Positions 1 to 4,325 of a DNA stretch of 14,634 bases are shown here, piece by piece. A model generated the notes under the pieces. The model had not been told where the DNA came from and did not search any database. It worked only from the letters and a program-made list of their open reading frames with translations. The stretch lies in assembly GCA_016793415.1 (NCBI GenBank), contig JAEUMC010000179.1, positions 1-14,634 of the forward strand. Direction: 5' to 3'. The stretch is from Devosia sp. GTDB lineage: Bacteria; Pseudomonadota; Alphaproteobacteria; Rhizobiales; Devosiaceae. The translations under genes and the position numbers were made by a program. Within the stretch, counting starts at the first letter, position 1. Each line of letters opens with the position of its first letter.

Positions 1-98
1 CGGGCTCGGAGCCTGCTGCTCCCCCCACCCTAGCTGCGCCATGAACTTGGCCGAGGCCAAGTTCAGCTTCGCTACCCTCCCCGCAAGGGGGAGGGAGA
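1..98. repeat. Dispersed palindromic intergenic repeat, right half (cut by window edge)
   Basis: This stretch aligns with the right half of the complete element at 2155-2294. Shared parts are a C-rich block ending in CCCACCCTAGC (near 22-34), a hairpin with an 8-bp stem GAACTTGG/CCAAGTTC (43-50 and 57-64), and the end block GCTACCCTCCCC-GCAAGGGGGAGGGAGA (71-98). The left half presumably lies outside the window or is missing. The element ends 9 bp past the stop codon of the ABC-1 gene. It probably folds in the 3' end of that transcript and may help end or stabilise it; that role is inferred. Confidence 0.75.
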
Positions 99-107
99 GC
101 CGGTGCC

Positions 108-1970
108 CTACTCCGCCGCCTCGGCCTTCATATCGAGGAAGCCGCCAGACTGGCGCTGCCAGAGCTGGGCATAGTGCCCGCCGCTGGCCAGCAGTTCGGC
201 GTGCGTGCCTTCCTCGACGATGCGGCCCTTTTCGAGCACCACCAGGCGATCCATCGCAGCGATGGTCGAGAGCCGATGGGCGATGGCGATCACGGTCTTG
301 CCCTGCATCAGCGACACCAGTTGATCCTGGATCGCCGCCTCGACTTCGCTGTCGAGAGCGGAGGTCGCCTCGTCGAGCACCAGGATCGGGGCGTTCTTCA
401 ACAGCACGCGAGCGATGGCGACGCGCTGGCGCTGCCCGCCCGAGAGCTTGACGCCCCGTTCGCCGACATGGGCGTCATAGCCCCGCCGTTCCTTGGGATC
501 GACGAGCCCGGCGATCACCTCGGCCACCTTGGCCTGCTCGGCAGCGCGGATCATCTCTTCGTCGGACGCCGTCTGGCGGCCATACTTGATGTTCTCGCGC
601 ACCGAGCGGTGCAGCAGCGAAGTATCCTGGCTGACGAGGCCGATCGCGGCGCGCACGCTTTCCTGCGTCACGTCGCGAACATCCTGCCCGTCGATACGGA
701 TCGCACCGGATTCCACGTCGAACAGACGCAGCATCAGGTTGACCAGCGTCGACTTGCCGGCGCCCGAACGGCCGACCAGACCCACCTTCTCGCCCGGCTT
801 GATGTCGAGGTTGAACCCCTCCATCACCGTGCCTTCCTTGCCGCGCCAATAGTTGAAGGTGACGTTGTCGAAGGCGATGCCGCCCTGCTTCACCTCAAGG
901 TCCTTGGCTTCCGGCTTGTCGAGCATGGTGATCGGCTGGGCGATGGTGACCATCGAATCCCGCGTGGTGCCGATCTGGCGGAAGATGTTGGAGCCGACAT
1001 CGAGGATCCAGCCCGACATGTTCATGATCTGCAGGGCGAACGGGATGGCCGTCGCCACCGCGGCAGCGTTCAGCGTTCCGGCGTTCCAGCTGGCGAGCGC
1101 GATCCAGGCAATCGAGATCACCAGGCCGGCGTTCAGCAGGAACAGCGTCGACCACATGTAGGTAAACACCCGCATGAGCTTTCTGAACTCGATGGCGTGC
1201 TCGTTCACCGAGTCCGCCACATAGGCGTCCTCATGCCCGTCGGTCGAGAAGGTCTTCAGCGTGTGGATATTGGTGTAGCTGTCGACGACGCGGCCGGTCA
1301 TCACCGACTTGGCTTCCGAGAGTTCCTCGGAGTGCCTTGCGATGAGCGGCATGACGATGGTGAAGAGAATGCCGTAGAGCACCAGCCAGATGCCGATCGG
1401 CACCAGCAGCACCCAGTCGAGGCGCGCCAGAACCACGACCGCGACGACCACGAAAATGCCGGCGTACCAGACGGCATCGATGGTCATGTTGACCGAGGAC
1501 TCGATCGACTCGCCCGCCTGCATGATCTTGTTGGCGATGCGTCCGGCGAAATCGTTCTGGAAGTAGCTCCAGGTCTGCCGGATGACGTGCCAATGGCTCT
1601 GCCAGCGAACGATGTCGACCAGGTTGGGTACGATCGAATGATTGCGGACCAGCGTATCGAGCAGGAAGGTGATCGGCCGGATCACGGCGATCACCAGGAT
1701 CATCCACAGGAAGGTCTGCCAGTGCAGCTCGAACATCTGTCCCGGCGGGGTGGTGGCGAGCAGACCGACCACGACGCCGACAAACACCGGCATCATCGCA
1801 TCGGCGATCGAGCCGATGGCAACCAGCACCATGCGGAGCAGGAATGCGCCGCGGAACTGGTTGACGAAATACATGGTGAACTTGGTAACCCCCATCGGGG
1901 GCTGGGTGTCCTTGGCCAGCGCTACCGGAGAGTAGCGGGCATCGAACCAGGCAATGACTCGGTTGAGCAT
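108..1970 (-). CDS. ABC exporter half-transporter, fused membrane and ATPase domains (ABC-1)
   Basis: A 620-aa type IV ABC half-exporter (MsbA/MdlB-like) that should work as a dimer in the inner membrane and move a hydrophobic compound outwards using ATP. The N-terminal part (about 30-330) holds several hydrophobic helices, consistent with the usual six-helix domain. The ATPase domain has Walker A GRSGAGKS (K406), signature LSGGQRQR (509-516), Walker B with catalytic pair D533-E534 in LVLDEATSALD, and switch histidine H565 in AHRLST. Every key residue is present. The start is ATG, but only a weak GAG lies at ribosome-binding distance, in contrast to the strong site of the small ORF just upstream. 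It is the last gene of a probable operon with ABC-2, which shares its length, its N-terminal pattern (RV..WF......TQPP.G) and a nearly identical ATPase core. The two may form a heterodimer or two homodimers; substrate unknown. Confidence 0.95.
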   Translation of the reverse strand: MLNRVIAWFDARYSPVALAKDTQPPMGVTKFTMYFVNQFRGAFLLRMVLVAIGSIADAMMPVFVGVVVGLLATTPPGQMFELHWQTFLWMILVIAVIRPITFLLDTLVRNHSIVPNLVDIVRWQSHWHVIRQTWSYFQNDFAGRIANKIMQAGESIESSVNMTIDAVWYAGIFVVVAVVVLARLDWVLLVPIGIWLVLYGILFTIVMPLIARHSEELSEAKSVMTGRVVDSYTNIHTLKTFSTDGHEDAYVADSVNEHAIEFRKLMRVFTYMWSTLFLLNAGLVISIAWIALASWNAGTLNAAAVATAIPFALQIMNMSGWILDVGSNIFRQIGTTRDSMVTIAQPITMLDKPEAKDLEVKQGGIAFDNVTFNYWRGKEGTVMEGFNLDIKPGEKVGLVGRSGAGKSTLVNLMLRLFDVESGAIRIDGQDVRDVTQESVRAAIGLVSQDTSLLHRSVRENIKYGRQTASDEEMIRAAEQAKVAEVIAGLVDPKERRGYDAHVGERGVKLSGGQRQRVAIARVLLKNAPILVLDEATSALDSEVEAAIQDQLVSLMQGKTVIAIAHRLSTIAAMDRLVVLEKGRIVEEGTHAELLASGGHYAQLWQRQSGGFLDMKAEAAE

Positions 1971-1986
1971 TTTGAACTCATTTTCC

Positions 1987-2024
1987 GAGCCCGGTAACTG
2001 ACTATCCGAGTCAGGTCAGGGCTC
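1987..2024 (-). promoter_or_regulatory. Hairpin over the small-ORF stop and the ABC-1 leader
   Basis: Outer arms GAGCCC (1987-1992) and GGGCTC (2019-2024) enclose inner arms CTGAC (1998-2002) and GTCAG (2010-2014). As RNA on the minus strand, the 5' arm and stop codon of the small ORF lie inside the structure, and the 3' arm ends 16 nt before the ABC-1 ATG. Ribosomes finishing the small ORF would disturb it. This fits leader-coupled control of ABC-1, but only the inverted repeat is observed; the function is inferred. Confidence 0.4.
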
Positions 2025-2112
2025 TAACGGATTGTTTTCGCTTCACTTTGGACCAGCTGGCGTTAGGGCCCGCGCTGAGGTCGATGAATCCGGGTTGATT
2101 GCGAGTTTCCAT
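2011..2112 (-). CDS. Small ORF (33 aa) between the two ABC exporter genes
   Basis: I do not recognise this protein. It starts METRNQPGF, has a middle part with little charge, and ends with a basic tail (KVKRKQSVRALT). There is no signal peptide or membrane segment. The reason to call it is its ribosome-binding site: AAGGAGG (2119-2125 on this strand) lies exactly 6 nt before the ATG, better than that of most genes in the window. It sits 40 nt upstream of ABC-1, which lacks a good site, and a hairpin overlaps its stop codon. It could be a leader peptide controlling ABC-1 translation, a small transporter-associated protein, or a chance ORF. Translation is likely from the signal; function unknown. 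Confidence 0.5.
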   Translation of the reverse strand: METRNQPGFIDLSAGPNASWSKVKRKQSVRALT

Positions 2113-2154
2113 TTGTCCCCTCCTTGGGATGGTTGAAGTCGTGTCTCTCAGTCG

Positions 2155-2294
2155 TCTCCCTCCCCCTTGTGGGGAGGGATCAAGGGTGGGGGTGGCCGCA
2201 CGCACGGAGCGTGGCCCTCCCCCACCCTAGCTTCACGACGGACTTGGCGAGGCCAAGTCCTGTTGCGCTACCCTCCCCACAAGGGGGAGGGAGA
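2155..2294. repeat. Complete palindromic intergenic repeat with 24-bp terminal inverted repeats
   Basis: The ends 2155-2178 and 2271-2294 are perfect inverted copies over 24 bp (TCTCCCTCCCCC-TTGTGGGGAGGG). Inside them a second pair of near-inverted blocks, CAAGGGTGGGGGTGG (2181-2195) and the complementary run before CTAG (2217-2230), continues the fold. Two small hairpins sit in the centre: CACGC/GCGTG (2199-2203, 2209-2213) and GGACTTGG/CCAAGTCC (2240-2247, 2253-2260). No ORF and no clear target duplication flanks it. It resembles a MITE-like or REP-like mobile repeat. It lies 20 bp past the ABC-2 stop and upstream of the small ORF, so a transcript from ABC-2 to ABC-1 would contain it as a large hairpin. 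Confidence 0.85.
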
Positions 2295-2314
2295 TTCCGT
2301 GCCGGCGGCAAGCA

Positions 2315-4177
2315 TCACTCGGCCGCCTCCTCCTGGGCATCCATCTCGATGAAACCGCCGGACTGGCGGGCCCAGAGCTTGGCATAGACGCCACCCAGCG
2401 CGATGAGCTCGGCGTGAGTGCCCTGCTCGACGATCTTGCCCTGCTCGAGCACCACCAGCCGATCCATCATGGCGATGGTCGAAAGGCGGTGCGCGATGGC
2501 GATGACCGTCTTGTTGCGCATCAGCAGCTGCAGCTGGCCCTGGATCGCCGCCTCGACTTCGCTGTCGAGCGCCGAGGTCGCTTCGTCGAGCACCAGGATC
2601 GGCGCGTTCTTGAGCAGCACCCGGGCGATGGCGATGCGCTGGCGCTGACCGCCCGAGAGCTTGACGCCACGCTCGCCGACATGGGCGTCGTAGCCCTTGC
2701 GGCCCTTGAGATCGACCAGCCCGTCGATGAAGGTGTCGGCCTCGGCGAGGCGCGCCGCGGCGAGCATCTCCTCCTCGGTCGCGTCAGGGCGGCCATAGAG
2801 GATGTTCTCACGTACCGAACGGTGCAGCAGCGACGTATCCTGCGTCACGACGCCAATCTGCTCGCGCAGCGTATCCTGCTGCACCGTGGCGATGTCGGTG
2901 CCGTCGATGGTGATGCGGCCGCTCTCGCGGTCGTAGAAGCGCAGCAGCAGGTTGACGATGGTCGATTTGCCGGCGCCCGAGCGGCCGACGAGACCGATCT
3001 TCTCGCCCGGCCTGATCGAGAGGTTCAGGTGATCGATGACGCCCGACTGCTTGCCGTAGTGGAAGCCGACATCGTCGAAGCGGACGTCGCCCTTGACCGG
3101 GCCGAGCGGCCTGGCGTCGGGCTGGTCGGCGACGACGCGCGGCAGCGAGATCGAGTTGATGCCGTCGCGCACCACGCCGATGTTCTCGAACAGCGCCGAC
3201 ATCTCCCACATCACCCACTGGCTCATGCCCTGGAAGCGCAGCACCAGGGCCGCCGCCACCGCGATGGCGCCGGGGGTCATGCCGGCAAAGATCCACTGGT
3301 TGATGCCGACGCACACCACCGCGAACAGCAGGATATTGTTCATCAGCGGGATGATGATCTGCAGGAAGGCGATCATCCGCATCTGCCGGTGCACGGTGCC
3401 CATGAACTGGTCCATGGCCTCGTGCGCATAGGCTTCCTCGCGACGCGAGTGCGAGAACAGCTTCACCGTGGCGATATTGGTGTAGCTGTCGACGATGCGG
3501 CCGGTCATCAGCGAGCGCGCGTCGGCCTGCGCCTCGGAGATCTTGCCCAGCTGCGGCACATATCTGACCAGCAGCGCCACATAGGCGACCAGCCAGACGA
3601 GGAACGGTACGGCGAGCCAGAGGTCGCTCATCGCCGCCAGCACTACGGCGCCGGCGAAGTAGACGACCACGAAGACCGTGACGTCGAGCAGCTTCATCAC
3701 CACTTCGCGCACGGCCAGCGAGGTCTGCATCAGCTTGGCGCCGATGCGGCCGGCGAACTCGTCCTGGAAATAGCTCATCGACTGGCGCAGCAGGTAGCGG
3801 TGCGCCATCCAGCGGATGCGCTGCGGCAGGTTGCCGATCAGCGTCTGGTGGATGATGTGGGTGTCGACGATCTGCAGCAGCGGCAGGCCGAGCAGTAGCA
3901 CCAGCGCCATCAGCCCGAGCTTCCAGCCCTCGGTCTCGAGGAATGTGGCCTTGTCGGCCGTGCTCAGCCAGTCGACCAGCGAGCCCATGAAACCGAACAG
4001 GGCAATCTCACCGGCGGCAATGGCGGCGCCCAGAAGCGCCATGGCGATCAGCCAGCGCTTGGCGCCCTTGCAGTAGTGCAGGCAGAAGGCGACCAGGCCC
4101 TTGGGCGGCTGCGTCGGCTCCCCGAGCGGATAGGGGTTCAGCCGATCCTCGAACCACTTGAACACTCTGTCGATCAC
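2315..4177 (-). CDS. ABC exporter half-transporter, fused membrane and ATPase domains (ABC-2)
   Basis: A 620-aa type IV ABC half-exporter, paralogous to ABC-1 downstream. The N-terminal half carries hydrophobic membrane helices. The ATPase domain has Walker A GRSGAGKS (K404), signature LSGGQRQR (S508), Walker B LVLDEATSALD with the catalytic Glu, and AHRLST with the switch His, so the ATPase looks fully active. The start is GTG, supported by GGAGGAG (4184-4190) 6 nt upstream; no better in-frame start is seen. It is the first gene behind a SoxR-like promoter (4212-4242) and is probably co-transcribed with the small ORF and ABC-1. In established biology SoxR responds to redox-cycling compounds and often switches on exporters, so efflux of such compounds is a reasonable inference. 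Family call is firm; substrate unknown. Confidence 0.95.
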   Translation of the reverse strand: MIDRVFKWFEDRLNPYPLGEPTQPPKGLVAFCLHYCKGAKRWLIAMALLGAAIAAGEIALFGFMGSLVDWLSTADKATFLETEGWKLGLMALVLLLGLPLLQIVDTHIIHQTLIGNLPQRIRWMAHRYLLRQSMSYFQDEFAGRIGAKLMQTSLAVREVVMKLLDVTVFVVVYFAGAVVLAAMSDLWLAVPFLVWLVAYVALLVRYVPQLGKISEAQADARSLMTGRIVDSYTNIATVKLFSHSRREEAYAHEAMDQFMGTVHRQMRMIAFLQIIIPLMNNILLFAVVCVGINQWIFAGMTPGAIAVAAALVLRFQGMSQWVMWEMSALFENIGVVRDGINSISLPRVVADQPDARPLGPVKGDVRFDDVGFHYGKQSGVIDHLNLSIRPGEKIGLVGRSGAGKSTIVNLLLRFYDRESGRITIDGTDIATVQQDTLREQIGVVTQDTSLLHRSVRENILYGRPDATEEEMLAAARLAEADTFIDGLVDLKGRKGYDAHVGERGVKLSGGQRQRIAIARVLLKNAPILVLDEATSALDSEVEAAIQGQLQLLMRNKTVIAIAHRLSTIAMMDRLVVLEQGKIVEQGTHAELIALGGVYAKLWARQSGGFIEMDAQEEAAE

Positions 4178-4211
4178 GACCGTCTCCTCCGTCCACCCTG
4201 GGATGGCGGCA

Positions 4212-4242
4212 CGGCTACGGCCTCAACCTAGGTTGAGGTCAA
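4212..4242 (-). promoter_or_regulatory. SoxR-type promoter and operator for the ABC exporter operon
   Basis: A perfect 18-bp palindrome, CCTCAACCTAGGTTGAGG (4221-4238), matches the CCTCAA-N6-TTGAGG form of the SoxR box as I know it from E. coli soxS. Read on the minus strand, -35 TTGACC (4242-4237) overlaps the left edge and a weak -10 TAGCCG (4217-4212) follows after exactly 19 bp, the long spacer typical of MerR-family activated promoters. The ABC-2 start lies 34 bp past the -10. No soxR gene is in the window, so the regulator would act in trans. Another MerR-family protein is possible but less likely given the half-sites. Confidence 0.75.
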
Positions 4243-4288
4243 GCGGCTCTTGCCATCCGAGGGCTTACCCTCTCGTCTGATTTGGATT

Positions 4289-4325
4289 ACGCACACGTCA
4301 CGCCAATAGCGTGACGGAGGTGCGT
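4289..4325. promoter_or_regulatory. Long inverted repeat between the exporter operon and pepN
   Basis: Outer arms ACGCAC/GTGCGT (4289-4294, 4320-4325) and inner arms CGTCACGC/GCGTGACG (4296-4303, 4309-4316) give 14 base pairs around a 5-nt loop, with a small internal loop. No T-run follows on either strand, and the site lies between two divergent start regions, so an operator or a leader-RNA hairpin is more likely than a terminator. I do not recognise the bound factor. Confidence 0.5.

Follow-up and report, generated by a model that had tools for sequence, protein, structure and literature searches.

Predicted SoxR control of an ABC exporter gene in Devosia, and a candidate leader ORF ahead of its neighbour

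The window analysed here, the whole 14,634-nucleotide stretch of contig JAEUMC010000179.1 from Devosia sp., carries two adjacent genes for ATP-binding cassette (ABC) half-exporters, which we call ABC1 and ABC2, on the same strand, with a SoxR-type operator ahead of the first and a small open reading frame (ORF) between the two. We consider it quite probable that ABC1 belongs to a SoxR regulon of the Devosiaceae, and that ABC2 is reached by read-through from ABC1, its translation being set by a leader ORF with alternative hairpins. The two genes and the proposed promoter are placed as follows.

4237 to 4242, minus strand: -35 element TTGACC, ahead of the box, conserved within a 22-mer of the family
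4221 to 4238, minus strand: SoxR box CCTCAACCTAGGTTGAGG, an 18-bp palindrome of the CCTCAA-N6-TTGAGG type, perfect at 12 of 12 positions (sequence scan)
4212 to 4217, minus strand: proposed -10 element TAGCCG, weak, its register set 19 bp from the -35
2315 to 4177, minus strand: ABC1, 620-aa ABC half-exporter with a GTG start (Pfam ABC_tran and ABC_membrane)
108 to 1970, minus strand: ABC2, 620-aa ABC half-exporter (Pfam ABC_tran and ABC_membrane)

An earlier, sequence-only reading of this DNA had described two ABC half-exporters forming one operon behind a SoxR promoter. Both half-exporters are real according to Pfam, although the second (108 to 1970) lies outside the coordinates which that reading gave. 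ABC1 and ABC2 are 48% identical; the best 60 of 583 matches in a sequence search of the PDB say no more than that they are ABCB-type exporters, and among the 25 of 187 NCBIfam families viewed none exceeded its cut-off for either protein.

The promoter ahead of ABC1 contains the palindrome and the TTGACC element that had been noticed from the sequence, and the box ends 43 bp from the GTG codon on the minus strand. The 19-bp spacer, in contrast, is a register fixed by the search pattern rather than a measurement. At this fixed register the hexamer begins with TAG in 11 of 11 ABC1 promoters and with TA in 15 of 15 promoters of soxR loci, TAGCCG itself being weak. In a simple pattern scan of positions 1900 to 4300, no promoter with a 16- to 18-bp spacer was found on either strand. 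Within the window alone, a box with up to two mismatches is not significant (at least one site in 62 of 200 shuffles). The 4.64-Mb genome to which the window belongs, however, contains two perfect 12-of-12 sites against 0.16 expected from base composition, both about 40 bp 5' of an ORF; a second host site of the CCTCAA-N6-TTGAGG type, which the earlier reading had proposed to look for, is thus present.

Comparison with relatives bears out that the palindrome is kept upstream of orthologues. Across 19 genomes of the genus, the perfect CCTCAA-N6-TTGAGG pattern occurs at 35 sites and its reversed control at 2, and in the family, sampled with 136 genomes, the 22-mer TTGACCTCAAN6TTGAGG has 58 occurrences and its reversed control none. 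Of 17 genus orthologues of ABC1, 12 carry a 12/12 box 42-48 bp upstream (12 of 18 if a partial copy in genome G012 is counted; G016, whose ABC1 sits at a contig edge, was left out). At the 79 readable loci among 80 related ABC1 genes from named genomes, some of which overlap with the genome set above, the box is complete in 9 and reaches 11/12 in 3, always 40-59 bp upstream. None of those belonging to genera other than Devosia reaches 10/12, and one locus placed in the Alphaproteobacteria (L126) has a 10/12 box at 128 bp.

The same box accompanies soxR itself. SoxR exceeds the TIGR01950 cut-off in 15 of the 19 genus genomes (it is absent from G000, G007, G016 and G017), and all 15 soxR genes have an 11-12/12 box within 20-31 bp of the matched start; the cysteine motif CxxCxCx5C is present in all 15 SoxR proteins of these relatives. 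Among the 136 family genomes, soxR and the 22-mer are each found in 39: 33 genomes have both, 6 soxR only, 6 the site only and 91 neither (Fisher p 1.7e-19). When the site is confined to within 200 bp of ABC1, which leaves 120 genomes and the exact 22-mer in 25 of them, the numbers are 21, 14, 4 and 81 (p 1.2e-10). This second table omits the truncated ABC1 loci of G016 and G089. It also omits 14 genomes in which no ABC1 match reached 1e-200; G010 is one of these, with a split ABC1 that nevertheless has the box. SoxR over the cut-off also occurs in the genomes of six loci with an 11-12/12 box (L109, L115, L118 of D. nitrariae, L125 of D. geojensis, L127 and L134). Because the box and its -35 element are conserved, co-occur with soxR and recur at soxR itself, SoxR control of ABC1 is very likely, as judged from these genome comparisons.

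The arrangement has a close precedent. In Stenotrophomonas maltophilia, the mfsA-soxR promoter combines TTGACC and 19 bp with the same kind of box, and SoxR was shown to bind there and a single pump gene to be induced (PMC4411124). As in that system, soxR of the genus stands head-to-head with a gene related to the major facilitator superfamily (MFS), at 13 of 15 loci. Two of the MFS proteins, scanned against NCBIfam, resembled EmrB/DHA2 and other multidrug families by E-value, none over the curated cut-off. Compared with S. maltophilia, the Devosiaceae regulon would additionally include an ABC exporter and some small genes. Streptomyces coelicolor is alike in that its SoxR controls an ABC transporter, SCO7008/ecaA, along with a few redox or tailoring genes; it differs in being an actinobacterium, and the part of that paper cited here makes no mention of a leader peptide (PMC4146615).

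Several observations weigh against SoxR control, or at least against a strict form of it. TAGCCG matches TATAAT at only 2 of 6 positions. Among the genus loci, ABC1 lacks the box in G003, G006, G007, G009 and G017, and the partial ABC1 copy of G012 (59% identical) scores 7 of 12. The exact 22-mer is missing at ABC1 in 14 of the 35 SoxR-positive genomes, including G003, G006 and G009, and no MFS relative was found facing soxR in G003 and G012 (L015, L016), where the box is present. Both Fisher values are inflated by kinship among the genomes. Besides the genome of the window, the site-only class of the second table comprises G028, G047 and G098; in these three, which are 99% complete, the 22-mer stands at ABC1 while no SoxR exceeds the cut-off, a genuine argument against a strict link. 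Among 14 further genomes searched, D. indica (L119) and D. marina (L121) likewise have a box at ABC1 and no SoxR over the cut-off, and in D. indica a 12/12 box coexists with a -35 changed to TTGGCC. Finally, no soxR match exceeds the cut-off in the window's own draft genome, which is 82.5% complete, and we know of no experiments on this locus.

These genomes invite the question whether another regulator of the MerR family, rather than SoxR, binds the box. The three near-complete genomes that have the 22-mer at ABC1 without SoxR over the cut-off would fit such a regulator, as would four other MerR-type matches of 38-71 bits in the window's genome. We regard this as very unlikely, given the identical box at all 15 soxR genes of the genus and the co-occurrence with soxR; in addition, the SoxR box tested in S. 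maltophilia, CCTCAACTGCAGTTGAGG (PMC4411124), recurs without any change in G008, at another gene.

Might the box instead be a relic in a lineage that has lost soxR? The lack of soxR in the assembly and the state of D. indica would be in keeping with this. The earlier reading had held that a genome without soxR would speak against SoxR control, and on paper this is such a genome; its assembly, however, breaks within the soxR-MFS operator. The soxR-MFS locus of G004 matches the window genome's contig C990 (3157 bp, L092), with a 91% match over the MFS half, and C990 carries a 490-aa MFS ORF and ends in ...CTACAACCTCAACCTAAC, within the box; the soxR half of the G004 locus finds only short matches elsewhere in the genome. 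Because C990 breaks off inside this box, the missing soxR probably reflects an assembly gap. The box and -35 element of the window are moreover perfect, and the nearest relatives by ABC1, G008 and G004, both carry soxR. Loss of soxR in this lineage thus strikes us as most improbable. As a separate observation, perfect SoxR-type boxes at ABC1 without SoxR over the cut-off (G028, G047, G098; L119, L121) may be relics or serve another regulator.

Further SoxR targets are predicted from the distribution of the box: the MFS gene facing soxR, a gene for an SgcJ/SnoaL-like protein and one for a 135-aa protein. The second perfect site of the window's genome, with TTGACC, lies at C5:1728-1745 (L005:1501-1518), after a lysE ORF and about 40 bp before the 135-aa ORF, whose product is membrane-protein-like and has no Pfam match; similar 22-mers with the same flank occur in G002, G004, G005 and G008. 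A placement of this site inside the lysE ORF was rejected, since the site falls beyond the end of that ORF. An SgcJ/EcaC-type ORF (TIGR02246; SnoaL-like) follows the box in L081 and L082, and by eye similar SnoaL-like ORFs do so in L085, L088 and L089. In G003, an MFS relative, 46% identical, stands behind another box (L086).

How might ABC2 be controlled? A box of its own was rejected: at the 11 loci scored, the best sites before ABC2 reach 7-8 of 12, which counts against a direct reach of SoxR to this gene. An effect of SoxR on ABC2 would need read-through from ABC1, and this part of the proposal is less well supported. In the window, the two genes are moreover separated by a dispersed repeat, which also counts against the proposal. 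The features of the intergenic region are these.

2145 to 2300, no strand assigned: dispersed repeat between ABC1 and the leader, with 65 matches in the window's own genome, mostly partial
2117 to 2125, minus strand: Shine-Dalgarno sequence AAGGAGGGG of the leader ORF, strong
2011 to 2112, minus strand: leader ORF METRNQPGFIDLSAGPNASWSKVKRKQSVRALT, 33 aa, the conserved last 33 codons of a 64-aa ORF
2019 to 2024, minus strand: 5' arm GAGCCC of hairpin H1, inside the end of the leader ORF (alignment)
1987 to 1992, minus strand: 3' arm GGGCTC of H1 (96.2% of cells paired, 13 sequences)
1985 to 1991, minus strand: 5' arm GGCTCGG of a start-sequestering helix, overlapping the 3' arm of H1 (85.7% of cells paired)
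1956 to 1962, minus strand: 3' arm CCGAGTC of the start-sequestering helix, over codons 3-5 of ABC2 (alignment)

The small ORF embedded between the exporter genes, as the earlier reading saw it, is real in part: only its last 33 codons, the ABC2 leader, are conserved, and the rest is mostly repeat. The 64-aa ORF (2011-2205) owes most of its first half to the repeat, which has inverted ends and a second copy at the start of the window (4-98). We considered the small ORF to be spurious, as expected from a repeat, and rejected this view on account of the conserved 33-codon core in relatives. In G002 and G005, where the repeat is missing, ABC2 begins 190 nt after the ABC1 stop codon and the leader 45 nt after it. 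KRKQS and ALT are kept in nine distinct leader copies found by motif search. In a first set of loci with ABC2, some of them duplicates, 26 of 28 have a leader-type ORF, the two without belonging to Maritalea. Among 94 ABC1 3' flanks, a leader ORF precedes 49 of 50 adjacent ABC2 genes with an ATG start (it is missing in L278); the same criterion is satisfied by none of 36 ABC1 upstream regions and by 105 of 10000 first-order Markov shuffles, and a looser one finds some ORF in two Devosia ABC1 upstream regions (L114, L123). The ratio of nonsynonymous to synonymous differences, pN/pS, computed on pairs less than 35% diverged, is 0.63 for one set of 38 pairs and 0.66 for another of 90, indicating mild constraint. 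A conserved leader ORF for ABC2 is therefore likely from comparison of the loci.

The leader could conceivably encode a small protein that acts in trans, as the peTrpL leader of Sinorhizobium meliloti does (PMC7298713), rather than working in cis. The strong Shine-Dalgarno sequence and the mild purifying selection would suit such a protein. Against this, the middle of the leader varies freely, in contrast to the conserved tail, which overlaps the hairpins; the ORF ends 34-106 nt before ABC2 at the loci counted, and its length and sequence vary between genera. A role in trans is accordingly unlikely in our estimation, and we favour a leader that acts on the adjacent ABC2.

Alternative RNA structures overlap the end of the leader ORF and the ABC2 start, with some compensatory changes. 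They were seen in alignments of distinct sequences whose leader and ABC2 lie no more than 60 nt apart (13 of a set of 17, these 13 being from the genus of the window, and 24 of 24 from a sister genus). Four sequences of other genera and every sequence with a wider gap were omitted. In H1, one pair changes from GC to AU in 4 of 13 sequences, and the downstream arm of H1 can alternatively pair with codons 3-5 of ABC2. In the sister genus, a leader-end helix has four pairs changed on both sides, in 16 cells, a count that none of 500 shuffles reached, and its covariation is 0.173, against 0.029-0.074 for slid versions. All 24 sister-genus sequences share an unchanging CGCGG:CCGCG pairing around the ABC2 start, which thus has no covariation of its own.

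Some findings weigh against the structural evidence. The number of two-sided pairs is matched by many of the 500 shuffles (413 for H1, 41 for the start helix, 90 for the sister-genus leader-end helix), and some of the two-sided changes are single inherited events, so that few independent compensatory pairs remain. The folding energy of the window leader is not unusual (z -0.70, 50 of 200 shuffles as good), and its minimum-energy fold uses a third pairing. Separately, Rfam returned three matches, all far below gathering scores, and no family covers the leader at its gathering score.

From an architectural perspective, the closest counterpart is bmrB-bmrCD of Bacillus subtilis, in which a small rare-codon leader ORF precedes multidrug ABC exporter genes and alternative RNA structures overlap the ORF (PMC4191407). 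The tail codons of the window leader, CGA AAA CAA TCC GTT AGA, are used at 2.0, 2.6, 2.6, 7.8, 2.9 and 1.2 per thousand in five ORFs of the window. bmrB lies before both exporter genes, whereas the Devosia leader lies between them, and bmrB uses an intrinsic transcription terminator (PMC4191407). A terminator between ABC1 and ABC2 was rejected, no terminator-like site being found on the minus strand, which carries the genes, in the simple pattern scan of 1900 to 4300. Control of translation is therefore more likely than transcription attenuation of the bmrB type. The pairings suggest that ABC2 is under translational attenuation by its leader, which probably tunes the amount of the second pump that is made.

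The earlier reading saw one two-component exporter operon, which would make ABC1 and ABC2 an obligate heterodimer under a single SoxR promoter. Their adjacency on one strand and their 48% identity accord with this, as do the lack of a terminator-like site between them on their strand and the gap of only 45 nt that in G002 and G005 separates the stop codon of ABC1 from the leader. Heterodimeric ABC exporters usually have one degenerate ATP site; here, GRSGAGKS, LSGGQRQ and ILVLDE give both subunits an intact Walker A, signature and Walker B-Glu, and a non-canonical Walker B or signature was found in neither. ABC2, furthermore, has a leader of its own, and no adjacent ABC2 was detected in 44 of 94 ABC1 3' flanks, whose lengths vary (weak ABC2 matches of 20-31% identity were dropped from this count). 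Obligate pairing is possible, if not what we would expect. Several relatives have a third ABC paralogue behind ABC2 (G004:C1:3778738-3780597 and equivalents), five of the listed matches having one in-frame TAG; in G004, no leader ORF was found before it.

We envision a scenario whereby redox-active small molecules oxidise the [2Fe-2S] cluster of SoxR, and box-bound SoxR then remodels the over-long promoter spacer, so that RNA polymerase would transcribe ABC1, whose product would pump redox-active compounds out. The earlier reading's suggestion of a redox-cycling drug or pigment as substrate is less well supported than SoxR control of ABC1. Transcripts would read through into ABC2 downstream, where translation of the 33-codon leader would decide, via the alternative hairpins, whether the ABC2 start is open. 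SoxR binding, the inducer and its export, the -10 element, co-transcription and the direction of the leader switch are all parts that we infer. As for that direction, ABC2 might be turned on by a ribosome that pauses in the leader or by one that completes it, and the sequence does not distinguish between the two.

What might the leader sense? Its tail is basic, KRKQSVRALT in the window and RYRT, RHRT, RLRT or RTRS in relatives. In the sister genus, which includes named Devosia species, most tails read D-R-[YHFL]-R-[TP] and some TRTRS, and in another genus the tail is KRKQYHKAKP. Candidate stalling motifs are R-x-R-T/S in the relatives and K-R-K-Q-S-x-R in the window. Arg/Lys-X-Arg/Lys is the main ketolide stalling motif of macrolide-sensing leaders (PMC8298421) such as ErmDL, which the Devosia-type tails resemble, a likeness that we treat as a lead only; ErmDL-type leaders differ from the Devosia case, in which the gene downstream is that of an exporter. 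On a speculative view, which we hold to be rather unlikely, the leader would represent a new family of drug-sensing arrest peptides in Alphaproteobacteria, whose basic tail stalls ribosomes in the presence of tunnel-binding antibiotics such as macrolides or ketolides and so frees the ABC2 start; the exporter pair would then respond to a redox input through SoxR at ABC1 and to a ribosome input through the leader at ABC2. Such a role may have arisen separately before the ABC1-type genes of Rhizobiaceae.

At loci of Rhizobium, Neorhizobium, Pararhizobium or Rhizobiales (L154-L180), an ORF of 17-19 aa with a Shine-Dalgarno sequence, for example MDITFVMMRLRAVNPRF, was seen by eye in 15 of 20. Its position is some 230 to 140 bp upstream of the ABC1 homologue, and hairpins are predicted to cover its end; it may encode another leader peptide within this exporter family, unrelated to the first.

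Control of an exporter by SoxR is already known; the proposed double control, by SoxR at ABC1 and by a leader at ABC2, would be a new variation on it, and the ABC2 leader ORF is the newest part of the finding. In the titles and abstract starts of open-licence literature, no SoxR regulon of Devosia and relatives was found described, nor was the ABC2 leader ORF in that on Devosia or Rhizobium leader peptides. Our analysis predicts a SoxR regulon for Devosia and its relatives that comprises an MFS pump, an ABC exporter, an SgcJ/SnoaL-like protein and a 135-aa protein, and it places a family-wide leader ORF, outside every Rfam family at gathering score, ahead of an ABC exporter gene. If this leader senses ribosome-targeting drugs, these bacteria would possess a drug-induced exporter switch with a testable arrest motif.

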